A stretch of 64,000 bases of DNA from Streptomyces avicenniae. GTDB taxonomy: Bacteria > Actinomycetota > Actinomycetes > Streptomycetales > Streptomycetaceae. The position numbers and the translations under genes are program-made. Numbering within the stretch: position 1 is the first letter of the stretch; the number at the start of each line of letters is the position of its first letter. The notes under the pieces are model-generated. The model saw only the letters and a program-made list of their open reading frames with translations. It did no database searches and had not been told where the DNA came from. Positions 42,077-61,101 of this stretch are shown here, piece by piece. The stretch lies in assembly GCF_000719135.1 (NCBI RefSeq), contig NZ_JOEK01000009.1, positions 1-64,000 on the forward strand, in the 5' to 3' direction.

Positions 42077-43951
42077 ATGACGGATGACACTCCCCCCACC
42101 CCCGGCCCCCCACCTCCTTCCGCCGTCGCCCGGCGGACGGCGGTAGTGGCCGTGCGGTTCCAGATCCTCGGGCCGCTGAGCATCACCGACGGGACGGAAA
42201 CCGTCGTGCTCCAGCCGTCCAAGCCCGCCAACCTGCTGGCCGCGCTGCTGCTGCGGTCGGGCACCATCGTGTCGGCCGACCACCTCCAGCGGATGGTCTG
42301 GGGCGACGAGCAGCCCGCGACCGCCCGCGCCTCGCTCCAGACCTGCGTGCTGCGCCTGCGGCGCCTGTTCGCCAAGCACGCCGTGCTCGGCACCCCGATC
42401 GAGGCCGTGCCGGGCGGCTACCGCATCAGCGCCGACGCGCGCTCGCTCGACCTGGTGGACTTCCGCGAGCGCGCCAGGCGGGCCACGCGGTCGGACGGCG
42501 GGCCGGAGGCCGAACTCGTCGCGCTGCGCGAGGCGCTGGCGCTGTGGCAGGGGTCGCTGCTGGCCAACGTCCGCTCCGAGCTGATGCATCGGGACGAGGT
42601 GCCCCGGCTGCGCGAGGAGCGGCTGCGCATCGTGGAGCGCGTCTGCGACCTGTACCTGACGCTCGGCCACTGCGGGCAGGCGCTCGTGGAGCTGTGGAGC
42701 CTCACGCGGGCGCACCCGGGGCACGGGCGGTTCCGCGAGCAGTTGATCGAGGCGCTGTACCGCACGGGGCGGCAGACGGAGGCGCTGGCGGAGTACCGCC
42801 GGTTCAAGGGCTTCCTGTTGGAGTCGCTGGGCCTCGACCCGTCGCCCGGACTGCGGAAGTTGGAGCTGGCGATCCTGCGCGGGGACGACCTGGGCCCCGC
42901 CGCGGGGCCGCCCGTGCGGGCGCTGCCCGCCGCGCAGCCCGTCGCCGTACGGCGGGTGGAGCAGGCGCCGCCGCAAGGGCCGCCGCCCGTGCCGTGGTTC
43001 ACCGGCAGATCGGCGGAAGTCGCCGCGCTGACAGAGCGGTTGGGACGTGAGCCGGGCGGGGCCGGCGGCCCGGTGACCGAGTTGGTGTGCGGGGCGCCCG
43101 GCATCGGCAAGACGGCGCTCGCGCAGCAGGCGGCGTACCTGCTGCGGGACCGGTTCCCCGGCGGGCGGCTCGTGCTGCGCATGACGGGCCCCGACGGCGC
43201 GCCGCGTCCGGCCGCCGAGGCGGCGGCCGAAGTCGCCACGCTCCTGCCCGCGTTCGGCCGGGCGGGGGCGCCGCGCGCGCTGCTGGTGCTGGACGACGTG
43301 ACGGACGCGGAGCAGGCGCGTCCGCTGCTGCCGCCGGGCGGCGACGGCGCGGTGGTCGTCACGAGCAGGCTGGGCCTCGCCGGGCTGATCGCGACGCACG
43401 GCGGGCGGGTGCAGCGCCTCGACACGTTCCCGCCGCGCGAATCGCTCGACCTGCTCGCGTCCGTCCTGGGCGCCGAGCGGGTGGCCGCGGGGACGGCCGG
43501 TGCCGCCGCGCTGGCCGCCGCCTGCGGCCACCACCCGCTCGCGCTGGTGATCGCGGCGGCGCGGCTGCTGACGCGGCCCGCGCTGAGCATGGAGGACGGC
43601 GTGCGGTGGATCGCGGCCGACCCGCTGTCCCGGCTGTCCCTGGAGGACGACCCGCGCATGTCCGTCCCGCGCGTGCTGCGGGAGGCGCTGGGCCGACCCG
43701 ACGCCGCGCTCGCCGACGCGTTCCTGACCCTGGGCGGGCTGCCGTCCGCCCGGTTCGGCGCGGCCGACGCGGCACGGCTGCTGGGCCTGCCGGAGACGGA
43801 GGCGGACCGCGTGCTCGAACGGCTCGTGGCCGCGGGGCTGTTGGAGGACGGCCCGCCGGGCCCTTACCGCATGCACGGGCTGCTGCGCCTGTACGCGCGC
43901 CACGCCCGCCACGCCGGCAGTGACCGGCTCCGACCGAGACAGAAGGTGTGA
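42077..43951 (+). CDS. SARP-family activator with NB-ARC-like ATPase domain
   Basis: Up to 624 residues. ATG 42077 directly abuts AGGAGG, too close for initiation; GTG 42146 or 42152 (VRFQILGPL) would give the usual SARP N-terminus. OmpR-type DNA-binding domain: FQILGPLSITDGTETVVLQPSKPANLLAALLL and ASLQTCVLRLRRLF. Bacterial transcriptional activation domain: ARSLDLVDFRERARRA to LGLDPSPGLRKLELAIL. An ATPase half with P-loop GAPGIGKTAL and LVLDDV follows, but no long TPR array, so it is shorter than AfsR. SARPs activate antibiotic clusters by binding direct repeats near -35; a matching 11-bp-period repeat precedes the precursor gene. Confidence 0.92.
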   Translation: MTDDTPPTPGPPPPSAVARRTAVVAVRFQILGPLSITDGTETVVLQPSKPANLLAALLLRSGTIVSADHLQRMVWGDEQPATARASLQTCVLRLRRLFAKHAVLGTPIEAVPGGYRISADARSLDLVDFRERARRATRSDGGPEAELVALREALALWQGSLLANVRSELMHRDEVPRLREERLRIVERVCDLYLTLGHCGQALVELWSLTRAHPGHGRFREQLIEALYRTGRQTEALAEYRRFKGFLLESLGLDPSPGLRKLELAILRGDDLGPAAGPPVRALPAAQPVAVRRVEQAPPQGPPPVPWFTGRSAEVAALTERLGREPGGAGGPVTELVCGAPGIGKTALAQQAAYLLRDRFPGGRLVLRMTGPDGAPRPAAEAAAEVATLLPAFGRAGAPRALLVLDDVTDAEQARPLLPPGGDGAVVVTSRLGLAGLIATHGGRVQRLDTFPPRESLDLLASVLGAERVAAGTAGAAALAAACGHHPLALVIAAARLLTRPALSMEDGVRWIAADPLSRLSLEDDPRMSVPRVLREALGRPDAALADAFLTLGGLPSARFGAADAARLLGLPETEADRVLERLVAAGLLEDGPPGPYRMHGLLRLYARHARHAGSDRLRPRQKV

Positions 43952-43956
43952 CACGG

Positions 43957-46122
43957 ATGGCAACAGCGTTCGACGAGCTGGCCGGGGTCCGTCCGCGCAT
44001 CCGGCGCGACGTGCTGTTCACGCGGACGCCGGGCGGGGTGCTCTTCCACAACGCGGACGGCGGCTTCCATCTGGCCGGGCGGGGTGCGTACCGGTTCGCG
44101 ACGCTGGTCGTGCCGCATCTGGACGGTTCCCGGCCGCTGGCCGAGATCTGCGCGGGGGTGGGCGAGCAGCAGCGGGCGATGGTGGCGAAGCTGGTCGGCT
44201 CACTGCTGGAACGTGACTTCGCGCGCGACGCCGCGCCCGCCCGCGACGCCGAGGCCGGTCTCCCCGAGGCGGTGCGGGAACGGTTCGCCGCGCAGATCGC
44301 GTACGTGGACCACTACACGGACGACGCGCAGGCCCGGTTCGCGCGCTTCCGGGCGACGTCGGTGGCCGTGCTGGGCGAGGGCGAGGTGGCGGCCTGGTGC
44401 GCGCTGAGCCTGGTGCGCAACGGCTGCGCGCGGGTGGACGTCGAGGCGGACGCGCCCGCCGCCCGCGCCGAGGCGGACGAGGCGGCGGAGGCGGGCAGCG
44501 GCGCGCGGGTCACGGCGCTGCCGGGCGGCGGGGACCTGGCGGCGTACGACGTCGTGGTGGTGACGGGCGCGGACGCCCTGGCCCGTACGCGGCGGCTGCT
44601 CGACGACGGCCCGCCGCCCGGTCAACTCGTCCTGCCTGTCTGGACGTTCGGCGAGCTGGCGGTCGTGGGCCCGCGCGGCGCGGCCGACAGCGTGGGCTGC
44701 GTCTCCTGCGCGCTGCTGCGCTTCGGCGCCACACTCGACGCCGCGACGGCCGCCGGGCTGTGGAGCGAACTCGCCTCGGGCGCGCGGCCGTCGGAGGGGG
44801 CGCCCGGCGGGCCGCTGGCCGGTCCCGTCGCCGCGATGCTCGGCAATCTGCTGAGCTACGAGATCTTCCGCACGGCGACCGGCGCGCTGCCCGCCGAGAC
44901 CGACGGCCAGATCCTCGTGCAGGACCTCGACTCGCTCGACGTGACGGCCGAACCGCTCCGCCCGCATCCGCGCTGCCGCCGCTGCACGCCCGGCGCCCCG
45001 GCCGACACCCTCCCCGGCGCCCTGGCCGTGGCGCGGACGACGACGGTGGAGACGGCGCGCGACGCCGAGGAACTGGTCGCCGAGCTGAACCGGCTGAGCA
45101 CGGCGCTGGTGCGCCCGCACGCCGGGGTGTTCACGCGCTGGGAGGACGAGGAGCTGACGCAGATCCCGCTGAAGGCGGCCCGGCTCGAACTGCCGCTCGG
45201 CCCCGGCGGGACGCGGCTGATCGCCGCGTTCGACGTGCACCACCTGGCGGGCGCGCGGCGGCGGGCGCTGCGGGCCGCCGCGCTGGCGTACACCGAGCAC
45301 GCCGTGCCCGCCGCCGTCCTGCCGGGCGGTCCAGGGGAGCTGCCGGTGATGCGGCCTGGCGCGCTGACGTGCGGCACGGGGCGGGGCGCCGAGGGCGTCG
45401 CGGCCTGGTCGGCCGTGACGTCGCTGCTGACGAAGGAGCGGGCCGCCGTCCCGGCCGCCGCCGTGCGTCCCGCCGGGCCGCACAACCGTGACCTGGTCGT
45501 CCAGCGCGGCCCGGCCGGGGCAGGCGCAGGGGAGACGCCGCAGGAGGCGGCGGGGCACGCGCTGCTCTCGGCGTTGGCGCACGACGCGCTGCTGCGGGCG
45601 GTACGCGGCGCGGCGACCGTACGTCCAATACCGCCGCCGCCAGGCGACGGCGACGCCGAGCTGGTGTTCCTGCATCGGACGGCCGAGACGCTCGGCGCGC
45701 GCGTCGAGGTGCTCGACCTGGGCGAGGACGCCCGCTCGGGCGCCCACGCCGTGCTGGCGCGCCGCGCGGCGGACGACGAGGGCGGCGCCGAGTGGGCCGT
45801 CGCCTGCGACCTGACGGCCGGTGCGGCGGCGACGGCCGCGCTGCGCGACCTGCTGGGCACGCTCCAGGTCACGGCAGGGACGGGCACGCCGCCCGACACC
45901 GGCGACCCGCTGCTGCCCGACCTCGCGCCGGGCGCGATCGCCGTCACGGACCCGGCGGGACGGGCCGGGCCCGAGGCGACGTTCCCCGCGCTGCTCGACC
46001 GGCTGCGCGCCGCGGGCCGCGACGTGCTGTACGCCGACACGACGCCGCCCGACCTGCGCGCGGGCGGCCTGTACACGGCGCGCGTGCTGCTGACGTCAGG
46101 GGGCAGCGATGCGGACCGCTGA
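43957..46122 (+). CDS. RiPP leader-binding / E1-like (ocin-ThiF-type) cyclodehydratase partner
   Basis: 721 residues from ATG 43957 (AAGGTG upstream; GTG 43948 overlaps the SARP stop). N-terminal winged-helix leader-binding region (residues ~1-90: DVLFTRTPGGVLFHNADGGFHL). A ThiF-like core follows (SVAVLGEGEVAAWCALSLVRNGCARVDVEAD), with paired CVSC and CRRC motifs for structural zinc. The C-terminal ~350 residues resemble a TOMM-associated, YcaO-like or ligand domain without the ATP motifs. Known partners deliver the precursor peptide to YcaO. First enzyme gene of the operon, overlapping the next by 14 bp. Confidence 0.88.
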   Translation: MATAFDELAGVRPRIRRDVLFTRTPGGVLFHNADGGFHLAGRGAYRFATLVVPHLDGSRPLAEICAGVGEQQRAMVAKLVGSLLERDFARDAAPARDAEAGLPEAVRERFAAQIAYVDHYTDDAQARFARFRATSVAVLGEGEVAAWCALSLVRNGCARVDVEADAPAARAEADEAAEAGSGARVTALPGGGDLAAYDVVVVTGADALARTRRLLDDGPPPGQLVLPVWTFGELAVVGPRGAADSVGCVSCALLRFGATLDAATAAGLWSELASGARPSEGAPGGPLAGPVAAMLGNLLSYEIFRTATGALPAETDGQILVQDLDSLDVTAEPLRPHPRCRRCTPGAPADTLPGALAVARTTTVETARDAEELVAELNRLSTALVRPHAGVFTRWEDEELTQIPLKAARLELPLGPGGTRLIAAFDVHHLAGARRRALRAAALAYTEHAVPAAVLPGGPGELPVMRPGALTCGTGRGAEGVAAWSAVTSLLTKERAAVPAAAVRPAGPHNRDLVVQRGPAGAGAGETPQEAAGHALLSALAHDALLRAVRGAATVRPIPPPPGDGDAELVFLHRTAETLGARVEVLDLGEDARSGAHAVLARRAADDEGGAEWAVACDLTAGAAATAALRDLLGTLQVTAGTGTPPDTGDPLLPDLAPGAIAVTDPAGRAGPEATFPALLDRLRAAGRDVLYADTTPPDLRAGGLYTARVLLTSGGSDADR

Positions 46123-48079
46123 GGCGCCCGCGCCACCGGCCCCCGCCCGGGGCGGCGAGCCGGCGGACGCCCCGTACGGCGAGCTGTCCGCGCTGATCGG
46201 GCGGAGCCTGGCGAGGCTCGGCGCCGCACAGGCCGTGGACGTCGGGCCGCTCGGCAGACGCGACGCCTTCCGCGCCGCGCCGGACGCCGGTCCTGGCGTG
46301 CCCGTGCGGGTGTACGGGCGGCACGCGGTGGTCGGCCCGCTGCCCGGCGCGGACGGCGTGGAGGGTGCGAACGGCGCGGACGGCGCGCGGCCCTGCGCGC
46401 ACTGCCTCGAACGCCGCTGGCAGGCCGTCCGTTCGGTGGCGCTGCGCGAGGCGCTGGAGCTGGGCGACGGCACGCGCGCGGTCGGCCGCTCCCCGTACGG
46501 CACGCCGTTCGCCGCCGACGCGGTGGCCGCCGTCGTCGCCGGGCGGACGGCGGGCGAAGGGCCGCGCGCCGCCGTGCACCTGGTGGACCTCGCGTCGCTC
46601 ACCGTGCGCCGCTACCCGCTCGTCGCCGACCCCGAGTGCCCTGGCTGCGGCCTGCCCGAGCGCGACAGCGCGGAGGCGGCGGTCCTGACGCTCGACGCGG
46701 CGCCGAAGCTGCGCCCCGGCTCGTTCCGGACGCGGGAGATCGGAAGTTACGACCTGCCGACCGACGCGTACGCCAACCCGGTGTGCGGGGCGCTGGGCCC
46801 GTCCGTGGTGTACGACGTGTCGTCCACGTCCACGTCGGCGACCATCGGCAGCTTCACGCTGCGCTCGGGCGACTACCTGCGCGAGACGTTCTGGGGCGGG
46901 CACGCCGACACGTTCGCGGACAGTGTCCGCATCGGCATCCTTGAGGGCCTGGAGCGCTACGCCGGGATGCGGCCCCGCACGCGCGCCGCCGCCGTCCACG
47001 CCAGCCTCGACGCGCTGACGGCCGACGGCGCCGACGTCGTGGACCCGCGGCGCTGCGGCCTCTACTCCCCCGACTTCCACCGGCGCAACCCGCACATCAC
47101 GCCGTTCACGCCCGGGCGGGAGATCCCGTGGGTGTGGGGCTGGTCGCTGAGCCGGGGGCGGTCGGTGCTCGTGCCCGAGGTGCTGACGTACTACCACACG
47201 CCGGGGCTGGCCGGGCGTTTCGTGCAGGAGAGCTCCAACGGCTGCGCCTCGGGCGGCTCGACGGCCGAGGCGGTCTACTTCGGGCTGATGGAGGTCGTCG
47301 AGCGCGACGCGTTCCTCCTCGCCTGGTACGGCCGCGCGGCGCTGCCCGAGATCGACCCGGCGAGCAGCGAACGGCCCGCGACGCGGCAGATGGTGGCGCG
47401 CCTGGCGATGTACGGGTACGAGGCGCGGTTCTTCGACACGGCGCTGACGTTCCCCTTCCCCGTGGTGACGGGCGTCGCGGTGCGGCGGGACGGCGGCCTG
47501 GGCCGGATGTGCTTCGGCGCGGGCGCCGGGCTCGACCCGGAGGCGGCGCTCGCGTCGGCGCTGTGCGAGATCGCGACCGACGCGGTGAACCTCACGGGCC
47601 GCACGGAGCGCGAGGAGGGGCGGCTGCGCGCGATGGCGGCCGACTTCGACCGCGTGGCCGCGCTGCACGACCATCCGTTGGTGTACGGCGTCCCGGAGAT
47701 GGGCGCGCACGCCGACTTCCTGCTCGGATCGCCCGGAGCGCCCACGCCGCCACGGCACGGGCTGCGCGAACTGTTCCACGACGGGCGGACGTTGAGGCCA
47801 GCCGACGACGTGCGCGACGACGTCGCCGCGTGCGTCGCTGCGGTGACGGCGGCCGGGTACGAGGTGGTCGCCGTGGACCAGACGACGCCGCAGCAGAAGG
47901 ACTTGGGCCTGGCGACGGTCGGCGTGCTGGTGCCGGGACTGCTGCCGATCGACTTCGGCTGGACGCGGCAGCGCGCGCTCGGCATGCCGCGCATGCGCAG
48001 CGGGCTGCGGGAGGCGGGGCTGCGGGACCGCGACCTCCTGCCCGCCGAACTCAACCCGGCCCCGCACCCGTTCCCCTGA
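46109..48079 (+). CDS. YcaO-domain azoline cyclodehydratase 1
   Basis: 656 residues from ATG 46109. The N-terminal ~190 residues hold two CxxC pairs (C96-C99, C177-C180). The YcaO domain then shows the ATP-binding pattern ILEGLERYAGM, SSNGCASGGSTAEAVYFGLMEVVERDAFLLAWYG and VDQTTPQQKDLGLATVGVLVPGLLPIDFG. The protein ends in PAPHPFP, the Pro-rich C-terminus needed by azoline-forming YcaO enzymes. Function: ATP-dependent conversion of Cys/Ser/Thr in the precursor core to thiazolines and (methyl)oxazolines. A paralogue with the same ending lies at 56438. Confidence 0.95.
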   Translation: MRTAEAPAPPAPARGGEPADAPYGELSALIGRSLARLGAAQAVDVGPLGRRDAFRAAPDAGPGVPVRVYGRHAVVGPLPGADGVEGANGADGARPCAHCLERRWQAVRSVALREALELGDGTRAVGRSPYGTPFAADAVAAVVAGRTAGEGPRAAVHLVDLASLTVRRYPLVADPECPGCGLPERDSAEAAVLTLDAAPKLRPGSFRTREIGSYDLPTDAYANPVCGALGPSVVYDVSSTSTSATIGSFTLRSGDYLRETFWGGHADTFADSVRIGILEGLERYAGMRPRTRAAAVHASLDALTADGADVVDPRRCGLYSPDFHRRNPHITPFTPGREIPWVWGWSLSRGRSVLVPEVLTYYHTPGLAGRFVQESSNGCASGGSTAEAVYFGLMEVVERDAFLLAWYGRAALPEIDPASSERPATRQMVARLAMYGYEARFFDTALTFPFPVVTGVAVRRDGGLGRMCFGAGAGLDPEAALASALCEIATDAVNLTGRTEREEGRLRAMAADFDRVAALHDHPLVYGVPEMGAHADFLLGSPGAPTPPRHGLRELFHDGRTLRPADDVRDDVAACVAAVTAAGYEVVAVDQTTPQQKDLGLATVGVLVPGLLPIDFGWTRQRALGMPRMRSGLREAGLRDRDLLPAELNPAPHPFP

Positions 48080-48096
48080 GCTGAGGAGAGCAGACG

Positions 48097-49722
48097 ATGG
48101 GGTACGCCCACGAATACGCCGCCGCGATCATGCGGCGCGGACGCGTCCCGATGGAGCCGGTGGACTTCGTCCCCGACTGGGCCGACGGGCCGCGCAAGAC
48201 GAAGTTCTACCCCGGCACGGAGCGCCTGCCGCTGCCGGACGCGGGGCCCTGGCCCACGTCGGCCACCACGGGGCGCGGGCTCGGCGGCGACAGCCCGGAA
48301 CCGGTCCTGTCGGAAGGCGAGTTCGGGCTGCCGGAACTGGCGGGGCTGCTCGGCGACTCGTACGGGCTGACCGGACGGCGGCTCGGCGTGCAGGCCAACA
48401 CGGACCTCGACGCGCTGCCGTCCTACCCGCTGGCCAACTGGTCGCGCGGGACGGCCTCCGGCGGCGGCCTCTACCCGGTCGCCGTCTACTGGGTGTCGGG
48501 GGCGGGCGGCCCCGTGCCGCCGGGCGTCCACCACTACTCGCCGCGCCACCACGCGCTGCGGCGGCTGCTGACCGGCGACGTGACGGGCGAGGTCCGCGCG
48601 GCGCTCGGCGAGGGCGCGCCGGGGCCGGTCGGAGGGACCGACCAGTACCTCGTGCTCGGCGTCAAGTACTGGCAGAACGCGTTCAAGTACAACAGCTTCT
48701 CGTTCCACGCGGTGAGCATGGACGTCGGTGCGCTGCTGGGCAGTTGGCGGACGTGGGCGCGGGCGCGCGGGCTGTCCCTCGAACCGGCGCTGTGGTTCGA
48801 CGAGGCGCGGCTCGCGCGGCTGCTTGGCGTGCGCGGCGCCGAGGAGGGGATCTTCGCGGTGGTGCCGCTGCCCTGGGCCGGAGGGCGGGCGGCGACGGCC
48901 GCGCCGGTGGCGGCGGGTGTGGCGCGGCGGGACGTCGAACGGTCGCGGCGGGTCGTGGAGTTCGACGCGCTGCGCGCCATGCAGGAGGCGACCTCGGCGG
49001 ACGCCGCGCGGCGTCCGCCGCCGGGCGCGCTGGCCCCGGCGGCCGTCCGTCCGAGGAGCGGGGGGGCGGAGCCGCTGCCCGCGCCCGTGCCGCTGGAGAC
49101 AGGGCTGCGGACGGCGCTGCGGGCGCGGCGCAGCAGCTTCGGCCGGTTCGCGGCCGGACGCCCGCTGGAGGGCGGCGAGTTGGCGGCGCTGCTCGCCGCC
49201 GCGCACGGCGCGGCGCGGCTGGGCGGCGACGCGGAGGCGGCGGGCGCGGCGGACCTGACGCGGCTGTACGTGTTCGTGAACCACGTCGCCGGGATCGCGC
49301 CGGGCGCGTACGCGTACGACCCGGCCGGGGGCGGGCTGCTGGCCGTGAAGGCGGGGCCGCCAGGACCGTTCCTCCAGAAGAACTACTTCCTGGCCAACTA
49401 CAACCTGGAGGAGGCCGCCGCCGTGCTGGTCCCGGCGATCCGCACGCACGCCGTGCTGGACGCGGTGGGCGGCCGGGGCTACCGGCTGGTGAACGCGGTG
49501 GTCGGCGCCGTCGCGCAGGCCACGTACACCGCCTCCGCCGCGCTGGGCGTGGGCTGCGGGGTGGCGCTCGGCTTCGACAACATCGCGTACCGCGAGGAGT
49601 TGGGCATGCCGGACGACGACGGCGGCGGGGACGGGGACGGGGACGGCGAGCAGCCGCTCCTGATCATGATGGTCGGCCACGAGCGCCCCGCGCCTGCCGA
49701 CTTCCGCTACAGGATCGCCTGA
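48097..49722 (+). CDS. SagB-type FMN-dependent azoline dehydrogenase
   Basis: 541 residues from ATG 48097 with GAGGAGAG upstream. Two nitroreductase-like halves: N-terminal RGTASGGGLYPVAVYWVSG and KYWQNAFKYNSFSFHAVSMDVGALLGSW; C-terminal LRARRSSFGRFAAGRPL, YLFVNHVAG-like and NAVVGAVAQATYTASAALGVGCG. SagB enzymes oxidise azolines to aromatic thiazoles and oxazoles using FMN. Full double-domain length, so mature azoles are expected. An Asp/Gly-rich loop lies near the C-terminus. Operon gap to the next gene is 13 bp. Confidence 0.93.
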   Translation: MGYAHEYAAAIMRRGRVPMEPVDFVPDWADGPRKTKFYPGTERLPLPDAGPWPTSATTGRGLGGDSPEPVLSEGEFGLPELAGLLGDSYGLTGRRLGVQANTDLDALPSYPLANWSRGTASGGGLYPVAVYWVSGAGGPVPPGVHHYSPRHHALRRLLTGDVTGEVRAALGEGAPGPVGGTDQYLVLGVKYWQNAFKYNSFSFHAVSMDVGALLGSWRTWARARGLSLEPALWFDEARLARLLGVRGAEEGIFAVVPLPWAGGRAATAAPVAAGVARRDVERSRRVVEFDALRAMQEATSADAARRPPPGALAPAAVRPRSGGAEPLPAPVPLETGLRTALRARRSSFGRFAAGRPLEGGELAALLAAAHGAARLGGDAEAAGAADLTRLYVFVNHVAGIAPGAYAYDPAGGGLLAVKAGPPGPFLQKNYFLANYNLEEAAAVLVPAIRTHAVLDAVGGRGYRLVNAVVGAVAQATYTASAALGVGCGVALGFDNIAYREELGMPDDDGGGDGDGDGEQPLLIMMVGHERPAPADFRYRIA

Positions 49723-49735
49723 GAGGACGGACGGC

Positions 49736-52501: not shown

Positions 52502-53556
52502 GCCCGACCGGAGCGTGGCAGGCTGTCCATGTCCATTACGCGGCCAATCCCCGGCCGTTGCTGCTGACCTGCGTCCGGCCGCTCGTCGCGGAGCTGACGG
52601 CGGACGGTCTGCTGGACGGCTGGTTCTTCATCAACTACTGGCTGGAGGGGCCCCACGTGCGCCTCCGCCTGCGCCCGGCGTCCCCCGCGGCCGAGCCGGA
52701 GGTCAGGGCGCGGACCGAGCGGGCCGTTGACCGCTTCCTCGCCGCGCGCCCGGCGCTGTACGAGGTGGACGCGGGCTTCCTCAACGGCTTCTACAACCAG
52801 CTGTTCGACATCGAGTTCAGCGGCGAGGACCGCGCGCCGCACCTCGACGGCGAGGGCCGGATGCGGCTGCGGCCCAACAACTCGCGTACCTGGGAGCCGT
52901 ACGAGCCCGAGTACGGCAAGTACGGCGGCGCGGCGGGCGTCGCGCTCGCCGAGTGGCACTTCCGGCACTCAAGCGAGCTGGTCATCGACGCGCTCCGCGA
53001 CAAGAACCTGCATCTGCGCACCGTCCTGCTCGGCACGTCGGCGCAGCTCATGATGGTGATGTCCGCCTGCTTCGTCGCCGAGGACGAGGCGCTGTCCGGC
53101 TACCTGGACGACTACTACACGTTCTGGCACCGCGCGTTCCCCGGCACCGGCTTCATCGGCAGCACGGCGTACGAGCGCAAGGCGGACGAGGTGGCGCCGC
53201 CGCTGGCCCGCTGGTACGCGCGGATCAGGGAGGCCGTCGCCGCGGGGGAGCCTGGGCGGCTGCCCGCGTTCCTCGCCCGCTGGGCCGCGCACTGCGCCGA
53301 ACTGGCCGCGCGCGTACGGGAGCTGGCGGACGGGGGCGGGCTCACGTTCCGCTCCTGGGACGGCGAGCGGGACGAGCGCGTGACCGACAGGGACGAGGCG
53401 CTGGTCCGGCTGCTCTCGCCTTATATGCACATGACCAACAACCGGCTGCACGTGACGATCCAGGACGAGGCGTACCTCGCGCACGTCCTGGGCCGGGCGC
53501 TGCGCCTGGAGCTGCCGCCGCGCGCGGCGGCCGGGCCCGCGGGGCGGGAGCGGTGA
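52498..53556 (+). CDS. LanB-type dehydratase, glutamate-elimination subunit (SpaB_C)
   Basis: 352 residues from GTG 52498 with GAGGAGGGG upstream, overlapping the previous stop. SpaB_C/thiopeptide-type domain: WQAVHVHYAANPRPLLLTCV, GWFFINYWLEGPHVRLRLRP near the N-terminus and SPYMHMTNNRLHVTIQDEAYLAHVL at the end. Retained Arg and His in these motifs match the elimination active site of NisB-type enzymes, so it likely removes glutamate to give dehydroalanine and dehydrobutyrine. The same fold can act as the thiopeptide pyridine synthase, but only one copy exists here. Confidence 0.9.
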   Translation: MSPTGAWQAVHVHYAANPRPLLLTCVRPLVAELTADGLLDGWFFINYWLEGPHVRLRLRPASPAAEPEVRARTERAVDRFLAARPALYEVDAGFLNGFYNQLFDIEFSGEDRAPHLDGEGRMRLRPNNSRTWEPYEPEYGKYGGAAGVALAEWHFRHSSELVIDALRDKNLHLRTVLLGTSAQLMMVMSACFVAEDEALSGYLDDYYTFWHRAFPGTGFIGSTAYERKADEVAPPLARWYARIREAVAAGEPGRLPAFLARWAAHCAELAARVRELADGGGLTFRSWDGERDERVTDRDEALVRLLSPYMHMTNNRLHVTIQDEAYLAHVLGRALRLELPPRAAAGPAGRER

Positions 53557-54659
53557 GCGCCCCCGGGTCCCTGGCGGGCCTGCGGCCCCGGCTGCGGCCG
53601 GGCGTCCTCGTGAGCGAGCCGCTGCTGTCGGGGCCGCGCACCGTGCACCTGGTGCGGGAGCCGGACAGCGGGCGGATCTTCGAGGTCGGCCCGCGCGAGC
53701 GGTTCCTGATGGAGCGGATGGACGGCGCGCGGACGCTGGACGAGCTGGGCGGCGCGTACGCGCGCGAGTTCGGCCGCAGGCTGGGCGAGGCGAACTGGCG
53801 GCAGTTGCTTGCGCTGCTCGGCGGACGCGGCCTGCTGGCGGGCGGCCCGGCCGGGCGGCCCGCGGCGGACGACGCGCCGCCGACGCCGCGCGGGGTGCTG
53901 CGCGGCAGCGTCCGCCTGGTCGCCGACGCGCACGCCACCGCGGGGCGGCTGCACCGCGCGGTCGGGTTCCTGCTGCGGCCGGTCCCGGCCGTCGTGCTGC
54001 TGGCGCTGCTGACCGGCATGACGGCGGCGCTGGCCTGGCACCTGCCGGAACTGGTGGACGGCGCGGCGTCGGTGTTCCGCAACCCGGCGCTGCTGCTGGC
54101 GGTGGCGACGGCGCTGTGGTGCAGCACGGCGCTGCACGAGTTGGGCCACGCGGTGACGGCGCGGCACCACGGCGGCCGGGTCGGCGAGATCGGCCTGCGC
54201 TGGCGGCTGCCCGTCGTGATCATGTACTGCACCGTGGACGACTACCCGTTCCTGCGCACGCGGTGGCGCCGCATCGCGGTGGCGGGCGCGGGCGCCGTGA
54301 CGAACCTGCTGTTCCTCGCGCCGTTCTTCGTGTGGTGGCTGCTCTCGCCCGAGGGCGACACGCGCGCCGCGCTAGCGGGGCTCCTGTTCCTCGGCACGCT
54401 CCAGGCACTAGCAATGCTCGTACCACTGCCGCCGCTCGACGGCTACACCATCGTCGGCCAGGCGCTGGGCGCCACCCGGCTCGCGGCGTCGAGCCGCGCC
54501 TACCTCGCGCTCGCGCTGCGCCGCGCCCCCGCCGCGGCGGCCTACCCGCGCCGGGCGCGGACCGCGTACACGCTGTACGGCCTGTGCGCCCTCTCGGCGG
54601 GCGCAACGCTGCTCGCCGCGCTAGCACTGCTCGCCAACGCGCTGCTGACAGCGTCGTGA
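53553..54659 (+). CDS. membrane M50-family metalloprotease with PqqD-like N-terminus
   Basis: 368 residues from GTG 53553, overlapping the previous stop. Residues ~1-100 look like a PqqD/leader-recognition winged helix (LVREPDSGRIFEVGPRERFLMERMDGARTLDEL). Then about five to six membrane helices carry the zinc site HELGH (LHELGHAVTARHHGG) and the second motif LPPLDGYTIVG, as in site-2 proteases. Candidate for leader-peptide removal at the membrane, or for export and self-protection; this is inferred from the position between modification enzymes and exporter. Confidence 0.88.
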   Translation: MSAPGSLAGLRPRLRPGVLVSEPLLSGPRTVHLVREPDSGRIFEVGPRERFLMERMDGARTLDELGGAYAREFGRRLGEANWRQLLALLGGRGLLAGGPAGRPAADDAPPTPRGVLRGSVRLVADAHATAGRLHRAVGFLLRPVPAVVLLALLTGMTAALAWHLPELVDGAASVFRNPALLLAVATALWCSTALHELGHAVTARHHGGRVGEIGLRWRLPVVIMYCTVDDYPFLRTRWRRIAVAGAGAVTNLLFLAPFFVWWLLSPEGDTRAALAGLLFLGTLQALAMLVPLPPLDGYTIVGQALGATRLAASSRAYLALALRRAPAAAAYPRRARTAYTLYGLCALSAGATLLAALALLANALLTAS

Positions 54660-54678
54660 CACCGTGAAGGAGACACCC

Positions 54679-55641
54679 GTGGCCCACCCACCCCGGTCCG
54701 CAGGACAGGACGACGGGACAGGCGCGCCCGCGCCGCCCCCGGCGGTCGTGCTGGAGGACGTGCGCAAGACGTACGGCGACGTACGGGCCGTGGACGGTGT
54801 CTCGTTCACCATCGCCCGGGGCGAGTTCTTCGGCCTGCTCGGGCCGAACGGCGCGGGGAAGACGACGCTGATCGAGATCATGGAGGGGCTGCGCAAGGCG
54901 GACGCGGGCACGGTCGGCGTCCTCGGCACCCCGCCCTGGCCCCGCGACACGGCGCTCCTGCCACGGCTCGGCGTGCAGACACAGGCGTCGGCGTTCTTCG
55001 TACGCCTCACCGCGGCCGAGCACCTGCGGACCGTCGCCGCGCTCTACGGCGCCGACCACGACGCGGCGGCACGGACGCTGCGCACCGTCGGCCTCGACGA
55101 GCAGGCGGACATACGCGTCGAGGACCTGTCGGGCGGGCAGCGCCAGCGCCTCGCCATCGGCGCGGCCCTCGTCCACGACCCCGAGCTGATCTTCCTGGAC
55201 GAACCGACCGCCGCGCTCGACCCGCAGGCCCGCCGGTCGCTGTGGCGGGTGCTGCGCGACCTGAAGCGCGCGGGCCGCACCATCGTCTACACGACGCACC
55301 ACCTGGACGAGGCCGAGGCGCTGTGCGACCGGGTCGCGATCATGGCCAAGGGCCGCGTGACGGCGCTGGACAGCCCGAACCGCCTGATAGCGGGCAGCAG
55401 CGCGGTGACCCGGCTGCTCGTCCCCGCCGACCGGCTGGACCTGGGCGCCGCCCGGGAGTTGCCCGGCGTGCTGCGGGCCGACCTGGACGGCGACGTCGTC
55501 GTGCTCCAGGCGGCGGACGCGGGGCCGGTCCTCGCGGCCGTCGCCGAGGTCGCCGGGCTCCAGGGCGTGCAGACACGCACGGCGACGCTTGAGGACGTCT
55601 ACCTCGGCCTGACAGGACAGACCGTCGGGGAGCAGCTGTGA
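54679..55641 (+). CDS. ABC exporter ATP-binding protein
   Basis: 320 residues from GTG 54679, chosen for AAGGAG at 6-nt spacing; GTG 54664 is also in frame. Walker A GPNGAGKTTLIEIMEGL, signature LSGGQRQRLAIGAALV, Walker B LIFLDEPTAALD and switch His in VYTTHHLDEAEALC. DrrA/CcmA-like exporter family. Coupled to the permease gene (GTGA). Probable export of, and self-resistance to, the peptide product. Confidence 0.94.
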   Translation: MAHPPRSAGQDDGTGAPAPPPAVVLEDVRKTYGDVRAVDGVSFTIARGEFFGLLGPNGAGKTTLIEIMEGLRKADAGTVGVLGTPPWPRDTALLPRLGVQTQASAFFVRLTAAEHLRTVAALYGADHDAAARTLRTVGLDEQADIRVEDLSGGQRQRLAIGAALVHDPELIFLDEPTAALDPQARRSLWRVLRDLKRAGRTIVYTTHHLDEAEALCDRVAIMAKGRVTALDSPNRLIAGSSAVTRLLVPADRLDLGAARELPGVLRADLDGDVVVLQAADAGPVLAAVAEVAGLQGVQTRTATLEDVYLGLTGQTVGEQL

Positions 55642-56441
55642 CCACCGCACGGGCCGCCCGCCCGGCCGACCGAGGAGCCACCGGCATGAGCGCCTACACC
55701 GCGCTGCGCGGGGCGGGGTACCGGGCGTACACCCGGGACCGCACCACGCTGTTCTTCACGTTCGCCTTCCCCCTGCTGTTCCTCGTCGTGTTCGGGCTGA
55801 TCTTCAGCGGCCAGGAGGTCGAGGAGAGCGGCAGGCCGTACATCAGCTACATCGCGCCAGGCGTGCTGTCGTGGGGCGTCGCGAACGCGGCCGTGTTCGG
55901 CATCGGCTTCACGCTGATGCAGTGGCGCCGCGACGACATCCTGCGGCTGATCAGGATGACGCCGACGCCGCTGGGCGCCGTCCTCGGCTCCCGGTACGTG
56001 CTGGCGGTGGGCATCGGGGCGGTGCAGGGCGTGGTGTTCGTCGCCGTCGCGATGCTGCCGGGCTTCGGCCTCGCACTCGACGCGGGCTGGCCGCTGGCGC
56101 TGCCCCTGCTGGTGCTGGGCGTCTCGGCGTTCCTCGCGATCGGCGCGATCGTCGGGACGTACGCGCGCACGCCGGAGGCGGTGGCGGCCGTCGCCAACTG
56201 CCTGATGGTGCCGATGGCGTTCCTGTCCGGCTCGTTCTACCCGCTGGACGCCATGCCGTCGTGGCTCCAGACCGTCTCGTGGGTGCTGCCGCTGCGGCAC
56301 CTGAACGACGGGGTGTCCGCCGCGCTCACCGGCTCGGGGGGCCTGGGGGACATCGGGCTGGCCGCCGCCGTGCTCGTCGCGTTCACGGCGGTCCTCGGCG
56401 TCGTCGCGTTCCGCACCTTCCGCTGGAGCGACCGGCCATGA
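55638..56441 (+). CDS. ABC-2 type exporter permease
   Basis: 267 residues; GTG 55638 overlaps the ATPase stop, though ATG 55686 (MSAYTALRGAGY) may be the true start. Six hydrophobic helices: FFTFAFPLLFLVVFGLIF, GVANAAVFGIGFTLM, VQGVVFVAVAMLPG, LPLLVLGVSAFLAIGAIVG, VANCLMVPMAFLSGSFYPLD and LAAAVLVAFTAVLGVVAF. Pairs with the preceding ATPase. ATGA overlap with the second YcaO gene. Confidence 0.92.
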   Translation: MTTARAARPADRGATGMSAYTALRGAGYRAYTRDRTTLFFTFAFPLLFLVVFGLIFSGQEVEESGRPYISYIAPGVLSWGVANAAVFGIGFTLMQWRRDDILRLIRMTPTPLGAVLGSRYVLAVGIGAVQGVVFVAVAMLPGFGLALDAGWPLALPLLVLGVSAFLAIGAIVGTYARTPEAVAAVANCLMVPMAFLSGSFYPLDAMPSWLQTVSWVLPLRHLNDGVSAALTGSGGLGDIGLAAAVLVAFTAVLGVVAFRTFRWSDRP

Positions 56442-58363
56442 CTGTCACCGCACCGCCACGGGAGACGCCGGGCGCGGCGCCGCTCGCCGAGGGCCGCGCC
56501 CTGCTCCAGGCCGCGCTGCGGCGCCGCTGGACGGACGGCGGCCGTCCGGGACCGGCCCCGCACGTCGTCCCGCTGGGCGCGGCCGACGTCCTCACGCCAG
56601 GCGCCGATCCGCACGCGGACGAGCGGCCCGCCGCCTTCTTCCACCTCGCGGCGCGCGCCGTGCTCCTCGGCCCCTGGGGCGGCGGGACGGGCGCCGCGTG
56701 CGGGCAGTGCCTGGCGATGCGCTGGCAGCGGCTGCGCACCCGCTCGGAGCGCGAGGCGCTTGAGGGCGGAGCGGAGCCCGTCGGCGCCACGGGCTGGCCG
56801 CTCGTCACGGCGCACGCGGCGGACGCCGTCTGGGCGGCGGCGCGCGCCGTCGCCGCGCGGGCAGGGCTGCCGGGGCCGTCGCGCGTCACGCGCATCGACC
56901 TCGCGACGCTGGCCCTGGTCACCGTCCCGCTGCTGCCGGAGCCGCTGTGTCCGCACTGCGTCACGCCCCGCCCAGCCCGGGCCGAGGACGGCGTGCCCGA
57001 CCTGTCGGGCGCGGTCAAGCCGGAGCCTGGCACCTACCGGGTACGGCCCACCGGTGCGTTCACGCTGCGGCCCGAGGCGCTGGCCAACCCCGTCTGCGGA
57101 GCCCTCGGCGCCCGCACGCACCTCAACCCGGCCTCCACGACGACCGCGCCCGTCTCCGGCAGCAACTTCGTGCGCGGCTACGCGGGGCTGAACGACGTCA
57201 CGTGGAGCGGCCAGGGCGACAGTTACGCGACGAGCCGTACGCTCGCGTTCCTCGAAGGTCTCGAACGCTACGCCGGGACGCACAACCGGCGCGGCCTGCT
57301 GCCGGTCACCGCCTCCTACCGCGACCTGGCGCGCGCCGCGCGGGGCGGCGGCGTGGGCGTGCTCGACCCGGCCGACTGCGGCTTCTACGCACCGGAGACC
57401 TACCGCGACGACCCGATGGTGGCGCCGTTCGACCCCGACCGCCCGATCCCCTGGCTGCACGGCTACTCGCTGCGCGACGAGCGGCCGGTGCTCGTGCCCG
57501 CCAGGCTGGTGCACTACGGCGCGGGCCTGGCCGCCGACAACTTCGTCTTCGAGTGCTCCAACGGCTGCGCCACCGGCGGCCATCCGGCCGAGGCGGTGCT
57601 GCACGGGCTGCTCGAACTCGTCGAGCGCGACGCGTTCCTCGTCGCCTGGTACGGCCGCCGCACGCCCGGCCGCATCGACCTCGCGTCCTGCCGCACGCCC
57701 GCGATCCGCGCCGCGCTGGACCGCGCCGCGCTGCTCGGCTACGACGTGCACGCGTACGACACCCGCGCCGACCTGCCGGTGCCCGTCGTCACGGCGCTGG
57801 CCGTGCGCAGGGACGGCGGCCCCGGGCTGCTGTCCTTCGGCGCGGCGGCGGGCTTCGACCCGGAGCAGACCGTGGCGGGGGCGCTCGGCGAAGTCCTCAC
57901 CTACATCCCGCACCTCGCCTTCCAGGTGGGGGAACGCCGGGCCGAACTCGACGCGATGGCCGACGACTTCGGGCTCGTGCGCCAACTGCGGGACCACGCG
58001 CAGCTGTACGGGCTGCCGCGCATGGCACGGCACGCGGAGACGTTCCTCGCGCCGTCGCCCGCCCGCCCGTTGGGCGAGGTCTTCGCCGACTGGGAGCGCG
58101 TACGGCCCCGCACCACGGACCTGGGCGACGACCTGCGGCTGCTGCGCGACGAGTTGGCGGGGGCGGGGCACGACGTGCTCGCCGTCGTCCAGACGACGCC
58201 GGAGCAGCGGGCGGCAGGGCTGCACACGGTCGCCACGCTCGTGCCGGGGCTGCTGCCGCTGGACTTCGGCTGGGCGCGGCAGCGCGCCCTGCTGATGCCG
58301 AGGCTGCGGGCGGTCGGCGGCCAGGACGCGGGGCGCGACCCCGTGCCGCACCCGTTCCCCTGA
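56438..58363 (+). CDS. YcaO-domain azoline cyclodehydratase 2
   Basis: 641 residues from ATG 56438, coupled to the permease. Architecture copies cyclodehydratase 1: N-terminal region with CGQC and CPHC pairs, then the YcaO domain with FLEGLERYAGT, CSNGCATGGHPAEAVLHGLLELVERDAFLVAWYG and VVQTTPEQRAAGLHTVATLVPGLLPLDFG, ending in PVPHPFP. Both enzymes keep the ATP-binding acids and the Pro-rich C-terminus, so both should be active. Separate roles (thiazole versus oxazole formation, or different core segments) are plausible. Last gene of the operon before the shared terminator. Confidence 0.94.
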   Translation: MTVTAPPRETPGAAPLAEGRALLQAALRRRWTDGGRPGPAPHVVPLGAADVLTPGADPHADERPAAFFHLAARAVLLGPWGGGTGAACGQCLAMRWQRLRTRSEREALEGGAEPVGATGWPLVTAHAADAVWAAARAVAARAGLPGPSRVTRIDLATLALVTVPLLPEPLCPHCVTPRPARAEDGVPDLSGAVKPEPGTYRVRPTGAFTLRPEALANPVCGALGARTHLNPASTTTAPVSGSNFVRGYAGLNDVTWSGQGDSYATSRTLAFLEGLERYAGTHNRRGLLPVTASYRDLARAARGGGVGVLDPADCGFYAPETYRDDPMVAPFDPDRPIPWLHGYSLRDERPVLVPARLVHYGAGLAADNFVFECSNGCATGGHPAEAVLHGLLELVERDAFLVAWYGRRTPGRIDLASCRTPAIRAALDRAALLGYDVHAYDTRADLPVPVVTALAVRRDGGPGLLSFGAAAGFDPEQTVAGALGEVLTYIPHLAFQVGERRAELDAMADDFGLVRQLRDHAQLYGLPRMARHAETFLAPSPARPLGEVFADWERVRPRTTDLGDDLRLLRDELAGAGHDVLAVVQTTPEQRAAGLHTVATLVPGLLPLDFGWARQRALLMPRLRAVGGQDAGRDPVPHPFP

Positions 58364-58386
58364 GACCGGGCACCCGAGCACGACGA

Positions 58387-58422
58387 CGGCCCTCCCGGCG
58401 CGGTGGAGCACCGGGAGGGCCG
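58387..58422. terminator. bidirectional terminator between RiPP operon and precursor gene
   Basis: CGGCCCTCCCGG (58387-58398) and CCGGGAGGGCCG (58411-58422) form a perfect 12-bp stem with a 12-nt loop. It lies between the convergent YcaO 2 gene (end 58363) and the precursor gene (end 58442). Confidence 0.88.
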
Positions 58423-58441
58423 CGTCACGCGGTGGCCTGGA

Positions 58442-58618
58442 TCAGGCGCTGCACGAGGTCGTGCTCGTGGTGCTGGAACAGGTCGAGGTGGAGGAGCAGG
58501 ACGTGGAGGCGGCGAGGACGACCTCGGCCTCGTCCGAGTAGTCCGAGATCTCGAAGGTCTCCGACTCCAGCTCCAGGATCTCGTCGGCGAGCGTGGACAG
58601 CTCCGGCTTGTGCGACAT
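58442..58618 (-). CDS. RiPP precursor peptide (Ser/Thr/Cys-rich core)
   Basis: 58 residues from ATG 58618 with the strong ribosome site GAGGAGG. Residues 1-37 are an acidic leader (LADEILELESETFEISDYSD, then EAEVVLAA) like those of thiopeptide and goadsporin-class peptides. Residues 38-58 (58445-58507) are the predicted core: ten Ser, seven Thr, three Cys (41, 47, 56) and a terminal Ala. Nearly every core residue is a substrate for azole formation or dehydration. It is transcribed opposite to the modification operon and ends at the shared terminator. Cleavage after Ala36 or Ala37 is inferred. Confidence 0.9.
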   Translation of the reverse strand: MSHKPELSTLADEILELESETFEISDYSDEAEVVLAASTSCSSTSTCSSTTSTTSCSA

Positions 58619-58714
58619 GACGCCTCCTCGGGTCGGGGCGGGCGCCGGTGTCACCGGCTGCGGCCCGCCGCCGTCCCATTGCAGCGCGCCCCGGCGGCAG
58701 GACGGCCCCGGTTC

Positions 58715-58733
58715 CGCTGACAGGTCGCTGACA
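58715..58733 (-). promoter_or_regulatory. 11-bp-period direct repeat, candidate SARP box
   Basis: On the minus strand TGTCAGCG occurs twice with an exact 11-bp period (plus-strand CGCTGACA at 58715-58722 and 58726-58733). Two direct repeats 11 bp apart upstream of a target gene are the known SARP operator layout. It lies about 100 bp upstream of the precursor start; no clear -10 was recognised. Confidence 0.5.
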
Positions 58734-58753
58734 CCCGGTGTCAGCGACCTGTC
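58719..58753. promoter_or_regulatory. perfect 35-bp palindrome between precursor and M20 peptidase genes
   Basis: Arms GACAGGTCGCTGACACC (58719-58735) and the exact complement (58737-58753) flank a single C. It is nearly centred in the divergent 226-bp gap: 118 bp to the precursor start and 109 bp to the peptidase start. Consistent with a dimeric regulator operator serving both genes. Confidence 0.7.
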
Positions 58754-58844
58754 CCCACGGCGCGCGGCGGGCGGGGCATGCTGCGGGGAGGCGGAGGCAC
58801 GGGAAGGCCGGGGAACGGCCGGGGACGGCGGAGAGGAGCCGGGC

Positions 58845-60098
58845 ATGGGCGTCGCACCCGACGTGCTGCGGGCCGCCGTCGAGCTGTATCTCGCCCTGCA
58901 CACGCACCCGGAGCCCGCGGGCGCCGAGGAGCGGACGGCGGCGCGGCTGGCCGCCTGGCTGCGCGCGGACGGGTACGACGTCACCACCGGCGTCGGCGGG
59001 CACGGTGTCGCGGGGGTGCTCAGGCGCGGCGACGGGCCCGTGGTCATGCTGCGCGCCGAACTCGACGCGCTCCCGGTGCGCGAGGAGACGGGGCTCGCGT
59101 ACGCGAGCGCGATCCCCGGGATGATGCACGCCTGCGGCCACGACCTGCACCTCGCCGCGCTGGCGGGTGCGGCCCGCGCGCTCGCCCGGGACGGGGAGTC
59201 CTGGCGCGGCACGCTCCTGGTCGTCGGTCAGCCCGCCGAGGAGACGCTCACCGGCGCGCGGGACATGCTGACGGCTGGCCTGTACGGCCTGTGCGGCGTG
59301 CCGGACGCGGTGCTCGCGCAGCACGCGGCGCCGCTGCCCGCCGGGACGGTGGCGCACGCCCGCGGGCCGGTGCTGGCGGGCAGCCGCACCCTGGACGCCG
59401 TCCTCCACGGCACGGGCGGCCACGGCGGCACGCCGCACCTGACGGTCGATCCGGTGCTGGCAGCGGCGGCGGCCGTGCTGCGGCTCCAGGGGATCGTCTC
59501 GCGGGAGACGGCGCCGTCGGAGCAGGCGGTGCTGACGGTCGGCCGCCTGCGGGCGGGCGAGCTGGCCAACGTCGTCCCCGACCGGGCAGAACTGTCCTTG
59601 AGCCTGCGGGCGTTCGGCGAGGAGACGCTGGAGCGGATGACGGACGCGGTGCGGCGCGTGCTGCGGGCGGAGAGCGACGCGTCGGGCTGTCCGCGCCCGC
59701 CTGAGCTGACGGTCACGGCCCGCTCCCCCGTGCTCGTGCCCGACGCGGAGCTGACCGGGCGCGTACGGGCCGCGCACGCGCGGCGGCTCGGCGCGGGCGC
59801 GGTGCTGGAGTGGCAGCCGTCCACGGCGGCCGAGGACTTCCCGTGGTTCGGCCCGGCGGGGGCCGAGCTGCACGGCGGCGCGGCGGTGCGGACCGCGTAC
59901 TGGATGCTCGGCACCGTCCGGGCGGCGCGCTGGCGTGCCGCGCGTGAGCCGGGCGCGCCGCCGCTGCCCGGGAACCACTCACCGGCGTTCGCGCCCGACG
60001 TGCGCACGGCGCTGCCGACCGGCATAGGGGCGCTGGCGGACGCGGCCAGGGAGGCGCTGGGGGCGGGCGTGCCGTCACGGAGGGTGGGCGCGGGGTGA
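58845..60098 (+). CDS. M20-family metallopeptidase / amidohydrolase
   Basis: 417 residues from ATG 58845 with GAGAGGAG upstream. M20D motifs: VVMLRAELDALPVREETGL, MHACGHDLHLAALAGAA, VGQPAEETLTGARDML, HGTGGHGGTPHLTVDPV (lid domain) and AAEDFPWF. Family members hydrolyse N-acyl or peptide bonds and need two metal ions. No signal peptide. Divergent from the precursor gene with a shared palindrome, so it may trim or deacylate the peptide, degrade the leader, or confer self-resistance; role inferred. Confidence 0.9.
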   Translation: MGVAPDVLRAAVELYLALHTHPEPAGAEERTAARLAAWLRADGYDVTTGVGGHGVAGVLRRGDGPVVMLRAELDALPVREETGLAYASAIPGMMHACGHDLHLAALAGAARALARDGESWRGTLLVVGQPAEETLTGARDMLTAGLYGLCGVPDAVLAQHAAPLPAGTVAHARGPVLAGSRTLDAVLHGTGGHGGTPHLTVDPVLAAAAAVLRLQGIVSRETAPSEQAVLTVGRLRAGELANVVPDRAELSLSLRAFGEETLERMTDAVRRVLRAESDASGCPRPPELTVTARSPVLVPDAELTGRVRAAHARRLGAGAVLEWQPSTAAEDFPWFGPAGAELHGGAAVRTAYWMLGTVRAARWRAAREPGAPPLPGNHSPAFAPDVRTALPTGIGALADAAREALGAGVPSRRVGAG

Positions 60099-60105
60099 GG
60101 GTCCG

Positions 60106-61101
60106 TCAGATCCAGCCGCGCTCCCGGGCGAGCAGCGCGGCCTGCGGCCGGGTGGACGCCCCTAGCATGCGCATGACATCCGCAAGGTGACGCCGGTAGG
60201 TGCGCACCGAGACGCCCAGGTCGCGGGCGCCCGCCTCGTCCTTGCCCACGGTGCACATCAGGTGCAGCACGCGCAGTTCCGCGTCCGACAGTCCTGGCCG
60301 CCGGTCCGCCGGGGGGCGCACGGCGAGGGAGACGTCCTCGGCCTGCTCCCAGATGCGTTCGAACAGCCCGGCGAGGCTCGCGACCAGGACCCCGTCCCGC
60401 ACCAGCAGCGCCCGCCGGGTGGCCTGCCGGGGGTCGAGCGGCATGAGGGCGGCGCGCCGGTCGTAGACGACGACGTGGTCCGACATGTCGGCGGCCACCC
60501 GCACCCGGGCGCCATGGTGGACGAGTTCGCCGAGGTAGGCGGCGGTGGGCTCGTGCGCGAGCGCGGCGGCCGTGACGACCGTGCGGCGGCGCACGCCACG
60601 GCGCAGCGCCCTGACGTCGCGGGCCGTCACGCTCCCGGCGTGCTCGGGCGTGAGGCGGACGCGGGGTTCGGCGGAGACGATCTCCTCGCGGGCGAAGAAG
60701 GCGAGGTCGTCCATCCGGTCGTGGATGGCGCTGCCGCCGTCGAGCTGTTCGACGGCCTGGCCGGGGGCGGTACGGCGGGCGGTCTCCGCGCGTAGCGTGT
60801 CCAGGACGTGGCGGTACTGGGTGATGCGCTGGATCTCCTGGTACATGGCACGCAGCCGCAGCTCGCTGAGCCGGGCGAGCGCGGTCTCGGGGTCGGCGGC
60901 GGTGGTACAGCCGGGGGTCTCGCCGGGTCTGAGCAGGCCGAGGCGCGTCAGGCGGCCGAGCGCGCCGCGTACGGCGTCGCGGTCCGCGTCGAGTATCAGG
61001 TGGAGGCCGTCGGCGGCCGTGTCGGGGTGGCGCAGGAAGTGGCGGTACACGGACTCCTCGGTCGGGGAGACGCCGAAGTCCGCCAGCTCGTTCGCATGCA
61101 C
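60106..61101 (-). CDS. LuxR-type regulator with TrmB-like N-terminal domain
   Basis: 331 residues from GTG 61101, which has AGGAG eight bases upstream; longer starts are Arg/Pro-rich. Residues ~1-75 look like a winged-helix TrmB-like domain (GVSPTEESVYRHFLRHPDTAADGL, LGRLTRLGLLRPGE). A middle domain handles sensing (ERRVRVAADMSDHVVVYD-like region). The C-terminal HTH reads LSDAELRVLHLMCTVGKDEAGARDLGVSVRTYRRHLADVMRMLGA. This type is common beside Streptomyces RiPP clusters. Candidate regulator of the 58719 palindrome. Confidence 0.88.
   Translation of the reverse strand: MHANELADFGVSPTEESVYRHFLRHPDTAADGLHLILDADRDAVRGALGRLTRLGLLRPGETPGCTTAADPETALARLSELRLRAMYQEIQRITQYRHVLDTLRAETARRTAPGQAVEQLDGGSAIHDRMDDLAFFAREEIVSAEPRVRLTPEHAGSVTARDVRALRRGVRRRTVVTAAALAHEPTAAYLGELVHHGARVRVAADMSDHVVVYDRRAALMPLDPRQATRRALLVRDGVLVASLAGLFERIWEQAEDVSLAVRPPADRRPGLSDAELRVLHLMCTVGKDEAGARDLGVSVRTYRRHLADVMRMLGASTRPQAALLARERGWI

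Follow-up and report, generated by a model that had tools for sequence, protein, structure and literature searches.

Goadsporin is a linear peptide that contains azoles and dehydroalanine (Dha), according to the available excerpt of PMC5303826. The spongiicolazolicins are peptides with azoles and dehydroamino acids, grouped with goadsporin and the split LanB enzymes in the accessible part of PMC10676384. Spongiicolazolicins A and B, of 29 and 28 residues, come from strain CWH03, and no antibacterial activity is reported for them in the passages available from PMC8838263. The title of a reference cited in the excerpt of PMC11767043 names Streptomyces pacificus as spongiicolazolicin-producing. 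According to the available text of PMC11583998, fragmentation of the B form yields tripeptide units that closely resemble the Dha/Dhb-azole-X blocks of nostatin A (Dhb, dehydrobutyrine). The window analysed here is a stretch of 64,000 nucleotides from Streptomyces avicenniae (contig NZ_JOEK01000009.1), in which positions 42077-61101 hold 12 intact genes for enzymes, transport and regulation, together with the gene of a 58-residue precursor on the minus strand. With good confidence, these 13 genes are predicted from sequence to make a spongiicolazolicin-type linear peptide with azoles and dehydrated Ser/Thr, the core genes, their order and the 21-residue core recurring in dozens of Streptomyces genomes, among them the CWH03 genome.

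The cluster in the spongiicolazolicin producer and in other actinomycetes

Matches to all 13 query proteins are found at one locus of Streptomyces pacificus CWH03 (L044), with identities of 53-91%, in the same order and with the precursor on the opposite strand. The core of the window precursor (58445..58507, minus strand; STSCSSTSTCSSTTSTTSCSA) is identical to that of L044 in 21/21 residues. The CWH03 precursor ends in AAEVVLAG followed by the core, which gives exactly 29 residues, or 28 after removal of the first Ala, matching the reported lengths. L044 is also the sole CWH03 locus with both split LanB halves; unpaired halves lie elsewhere in that genome, PF04738 in a 1016-residue frame on contig C16 and PF14028 on contig C1. 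From these sequences we infer that L044 probably makes spongiicolazolicin.

The relatives were collected from genome contigs in a scan for the LanB-type glutamylation protein that used six octapeptide patterns. This gave 118 stretches, 98 of them with relatives, and the best 80 loci were kept, many of which end early at contig ends. Loci of S. griseus, S. lavendulae and S. globisporus are among the relatives listed. All ten genes from the Streptomyces antibiotic regulatory protein (SARP) gene to the second YcaO gene (YcaO2) were matched in 61 of the 80 loci, and in 60 of these 61 they are collinear on a single strand, so that chance is ruled out. In the sole non-collinear locus (L049) the contig ends ahead of YcaO2, and its YcaO2 match is a cross-match.

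The placement of the precursor and M20 genes was counted where the sequence extends 2.5 kb or more past YcaO2, which is the case in 64 loci. The precursor lies directly behind YcaO2 on the opposite strand in 57 of them, and the M20 gene keeps its place in 61. Four of the seven precursor exceptions (L036, L055, L060 and L082) carry the gene on the plus strand, upstream of the SARP gene; no precursor match was obtained in L042 and L071. The LuxR-like gene is considered a variable edge of the cluster because it was matched in just 33 of the 80 loci, in five of these with only about 30% identity.

The preliminary description of this stretch had presented the cluster as a candidate new one, with no described product of the same core and gene order. 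This claim does not survive the presence in CWH03 of the same order, the oppositely oriented precursor and the identical 21-residue core, nor the same order in dozens of other species. The comparison with spongiicolazolicin that it proposed is thereby made, and it largely answers the novelty question. The opposite orientation of the precursor, which its heading names, is indeed seen in the window and is usual among the relatives. The cluster is thus one more member of a common family with a likely named product, and not a new class of ribosomally synthesized and post-translationally modified peptides (RiPP).

Individual loci show further arrangements. In L036, L055, L060, L070 and L082 a plus-strand precursor upstream of the SARP gene (near 600-1400) has a shifted Cys pattern, CTSTSSTSTSSSTCSTTSCSA. 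L007 holds three precursor copies and L056 two, with cores slightly different within the locus. In L021 (Streptomyces sp. sk2.1) the genes through the ATP-binding cassette (ABC) ATPase are present, and the permease, second YcaO and precursor are unmatched within the 10 kb flank; it is probably a decayed cluster. Spread by plasmids was considered and rejected: the LanB protein has matches in only six plasmid records, none reaching 60% identity, and the best of these, from Streptomyces sp. NBC_00316, is distantly related and shows no second YcaO where it is annotated. The Streptomyces plasmid locus L102 (NZ_CP108024.1, 313090-335732) is a distant cousin cluster that encodes SagB, a split LanB, an ABC pair and two F/C-type leader-peptide-binding proteins, with no second YcaO annotated behind the ABC pair.

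Conservation of the core peptide

The precursor was found in 70 copies from 66 sources, namely 65 of the 80 loci and the window. The identical 21-residue core is present in 34 copies, including that of the window, and is written in 34 different DNA spellings, which differ at 1 to 19 of the 63 bases (median 9); Ser alternates between TCN and AGC codons at several places. The codon analysis started from 61 rows, one minus-strand copy per source with five plus-strand-only sources excluded, and 58 were retained after removal of three rows without the leader motif DY.D..EVVLA. In the core, 3.7% of the codon comparisons are amino-acid changes and 28.7% are silent, a ratio of 0.13. The ratio is 0.31 for the 24 residues ahead of the core and lies between 1.02 and 1.82 for eleven protein genes, each compared across 51 to 57 of these loci. 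Among 4,956 segments of 21 residues in those proteins, four are as conserved as the core, all in the elimination protein. Because of the low ratio and the differing DNA spellings, the core is, on this codon evidence, old and maintained by selection, and not recently spread.

Several observations weigh against this reading. The leader segment has a mean identity of 95.0%, and was itself selected by motif, against 96.3% for the core; the loci were chosen by LanB similarity; and those of Micromonospora and S. varsoviensis have altered cores. The Nei-Gojobori method does not single out the core, with nonsynonymous proportions (pN) of 0.124 for the core and 0.038 for the leader at synonymous proportions (pS) of about 0.24 for both. 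This outcome is attributed to Ser TCN/AGY switches, which the method books as replacements, and for that reason the codon-level count of amino-acid and silent changes was used.

A precursor protein search returned 81 homologues among 102 candidates, in the named genera Streptomyces, Kitasatospora, Micromonospora, Dactylosporangium, Catenulispora, Actinokineospora and Nonomuraea. In S. varsoviensis (L074) the same cluster carries two precursors whose cores, STSCDSSSCSSSTTSTTSTCA and STSCTSCSTTSSTTSCTSCCA, are divergent; the BLAST threshold partly missed them, and this locus is the main exception to the frozen core. A text search of the open-access literature found no papers mentioning core fragments.

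Antibiotic cores usually vary between producers. Here the core keeps its exact sequence while its biosynthetic proteins drift to about 50-75% identity, as would be expected for a message that all receivers have to recognise. On that basis the peptide might serve Streptomyces and related actinomycetes as a widespread, frozen signal molecule or structural agent, and not as a weapon. This proposal is tentative and rather doubtful. It would liken the peptide to goadsporin, which promotes morphogenesis, and a conserved signalling-like role draws on both the core conservation and the second-hand report of no antibacterial activity. A frozen core and a congener without activity against the bacteria tested, as the available passages of PMC8838263 have it, make it testable, with standard strains, whether the peptide has a physiological role in its producers. 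This conserved-signal reading is the sole part of the analysis that would raise interest in the cluster.

Genes of the cluster and proposed pathway

All the genes named in the preliminary description are present as open frames. Its labels agree with the family matches, except that the helix-turn-helix of the LuxR-like protein falls under the cut-off and that the leader-binding protein also has a YcaO-like half. The azole and dehydrated Ser/Thr chemistry that it deduced is backed by the same matches. The 13 frames have no internal stops and a GC content at third codon positions of 0.93-0.98; the start codons were selected from in-frame ATG/GTG. Unless noted otherwise, the genes lie on the plus strand.

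The ten collinear genes of the relatives are headed by a SARP/AfsR-like transcriptional regulator with a BTAD domain (42077..43951, 624 residues; PF03704, 118 bits). It is followed by the F protein (43948..46122; P0002), a ThiF-like leader-binding protein that matches TIGR03882 (41.8 bits, cut-off 36.9), TIGR03693 (80.9 bits, under its cut-off) and, partially, PF02624 (56 bits). Its degenerate C-terminal YcaO-like half (residues 486-714) lacks the E..ER and SNGCA motifs in the alignment, and because of this loss it probably has no cyclodehydratase activity; the meaning assigned to these motifs is that of the YcaO literature. YcaO1 (46109..48079; TIGR03604, 296 bits, cut-off 219; TIGR03882, 104 bits) is a fused C-YcaO cyclodehydratase with E..ER, SNGCASG and a C-terminal PAPHPFP. 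YcaO2 (56438..58363; TIGR03604, 288.8 bits) is a second fused one that ends in PVPHPFP. The two are 45% identical, and the alignment indicates that both keep the E..ER and SNGCA motifs and the Pro-rich C terminus, which suggests two active enzymes with a possible division of labour between Cys and Thr/Ser. A further YcaO domain lies outside the window in the same genome, in a long open frame (G000:C20:44582-45643).

Between the two YcaO genes are placed a SagB-type azoline dehydrogenase (48097..49722; TIGR03605, 108.7 bits, cut-off 78.4), the LanB-type glutamylation protein (49736..52501; PF04738, 152 bits), the LanB-type glutamate elimination protein (52498..53556; PF14028), an M50 intramembrane metalloprotease with an HELGH motif (53553..54659; PF02163, 36 bits, cut-off 27; daptide M50 model, 102.7 of 300 bits), a DrrA-like ABC exporter ATPase (54664..55641; PF00005, 101 bits) and an ABC-2 exporter permease (55638..56441; PF01061, 93 bits). 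In this genome PF04738 passes its cut-off only here, with one weak sub-cut-off match on contig C4. By eye, the N terminus of the M50 protein seemed likely to be a PqqD-like leader-binding domain, but a Pfam scan up to E 10 matched none and the idea was dropped. M50 proteases operate in other RiPP pathways, those of epipeptides and pearlins, according to the part of PMC10885120 available.

The precursor gene (58442..58618, minus strand; 58 residues, MSHKPELSTLADEILELESETFEISDYSDEAEVVLAASTSCSSTSTCSSTTSTTSCSA) is preceded by GAGGAGG. The cluster is completed by an M20-type amidohydrolase/peptidase (58845..60098; TIGR01891, 239 bits, cut-off 154) and the LuxR-like regulator (60106..61101, minus strand; GerE helix-turn-helix, 17.4 bits, Pfam cut-off 23.5). 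No TTA codon is present in the 13 genes, which give no hint of bldA developmental control. Six of the nine flanking open frames have a Pfam match, among them HxlR and RibD_C upstream and lactonase-like and ornithine cyclodeaminase-like proteins downstream; the Pfam scan gave no RiPP enzyme match for any of the nine.

In the proposed pathway, the F protein would bind the leader and offer the core to the two fused YcaO cyclodehydratases, which would cyclise Cys, Thr and Ser with the residue before them. Oxidation of these rings to thiazoles and (methyl)oxazoles would be the task of SagB. Subsequently, the glutamylation protein would transfer Glu from Glu-tRNA onto some Ser/Thr that precede an azole, and the elimination protein would remove the glutamate to leave Dha or Dhb. 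The M50 protease may remove the leader, the ABC pair export the peptide and the M20 protein possibly trim it, with expression controlled by the SARP, joined in some strains by the LuxR-like protein. This order, from leader binding through cyclodehydration, oxidation, glutamylation with elimination and leader removal to export, is proposed by analogy with goadsporin, in which the azoles form first and the Dha sites require an azole at the next residue (PMC5303826, in the excerpt available).

Alternative assignments and comparison with known systems

One parsing of the core sets S-T first, then six triplets (SCS-STS-TCS-STT-STT-SCS), then Ala; it would yield a Dha/Dhb-azole-X repeat were the first place of every triplet dehydrated. 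Some observations weigh against the spongiicolazolicin assignment or this parsing of the core. Across 37 distinct tails the middle places 7, 10, 13, 16 and 19 are always S/T/C, but so are most other places, and middle place 4 is not S/T/C in five tails, where it falls outside the recognisable core; the triplet register is weakly supported by these sequences. Dehydrated residues are rarer in the spongiicolazolicins than in nostatin A, as the available text of PMC11583998 states, and a fully dehydrated repeat is for this reason unlikely. The main reservation is that CWH03 has a second azole-type locus (L090, C1:36000-55000) with a YcaO, a C protein, a SagB fusion, a PF14028 protein and four tandem precursors. 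The family could then be correctly recognised and the CWH03 compounds still come from this C1 locus, leaving the product of the present family undescribed. This is improbable: the C1 locus has no PF04738 match, its precursors combine ELEVLP leaders with Gly-rich cores that lack repeated S-[C/T]-X triplets, and the reported lengths of 29 and 28 residues match the L044 precursor instead. Finally, the relatives of the elimination protein with solved structures are, by sequence, TbtD, a pyridine synthase, and TsrE.

These relatives would fit a thiopeptide cluster in which the PF14028 protein is a [4+2] pyridine synthase that closes a macrocycle, and the precursor passes the NCBIfam cut-offs of both thiazolylpeptide models (TIGR03892 'thiazolylpeptide-type bacteriocin', 48.0 bits, cut-off 25; NF033400), with the F protein, fused YcaO, SagB and LanB also as in thiopeptides. 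Such a pathway needs both an elimination protein and a cycloaddition enzyme, whereas the elimination protein is the sole PF14028 match in the whole genome and reaches 90.1 bits against a cut-off of 325 in the TbtD/PbtD pyridine synthase model (NF045556). With one PF14028 match, this genome, judged from its sequence, lacks a separate pyridine synthase, and a thiopeptide macrocycle is very improbable. A goadsporin cluster is hardly credible. It would have SagB, YcaO and split LanB in common with the present one, and among solved structures a goadsporin protein (9jhq, 70 bits) ranks second for the glutamylation protein; however, the latter is nearer to 6ec7/6ec8 (141 bits), which we take to be TbtB, and there are two YcaO proteins rather than one. 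Neither an N-acetyltransferase nor a peptidase-ABC transporter fusion was matched at E 0.001 among the 13 proteins (for the ABC ATPase, among the 25 of 194 NCBIfam matches listed). A spongiicolazolicin-type linear peptide is hence the preferred product.

In comparison with the spongiicolazolicin locus of CWH03, the last 29 residues of the window precursor (EAEVVLAASTSCSSTSTCSSTTSTTSCSA) differ at two N-terminal places, with EAEVVLAA ahead of the core where L044 has AAEVVLAG. Spongiicolazolicins A and B were isolated from CWH03; the product of the window is predicted. The goadsporin system (GodA-H) resembles the window in YcaO, SagB and split LanB; the window has in addition the F protein, the second YcaO, M50 and M20, a different core and no match to a GodH-type acetyltransferase. 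The thiopeptides (thiomuracin, Tbt) have in common with it the precursor family, the F protein and a related LanB, and differ in having a separate pyridine synthase. The dehydrazoles (carnazolamide) also place azoles next to Dha, with a DUF4135 LanMbC dehydratase and a nitrile-hydratase-like leader (PMC10676384, in the part accessible). Filing the cluster with them was rejected, as the scanned cluster proteins include no such match, to DUF4135 (PF13575) in particular, for which the rest of the genome was not searched. The coryneazolisins of Corynebacterium, which are predicted only, resemble the window in having two YcaO (D) proteins, lanthipeptide-like dehydratases and no [4+2] enzyme, according to the excerpt of PMC4603692. 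One of their YcaO proteins is discrete and one is fused, whereas in the window both are fused.

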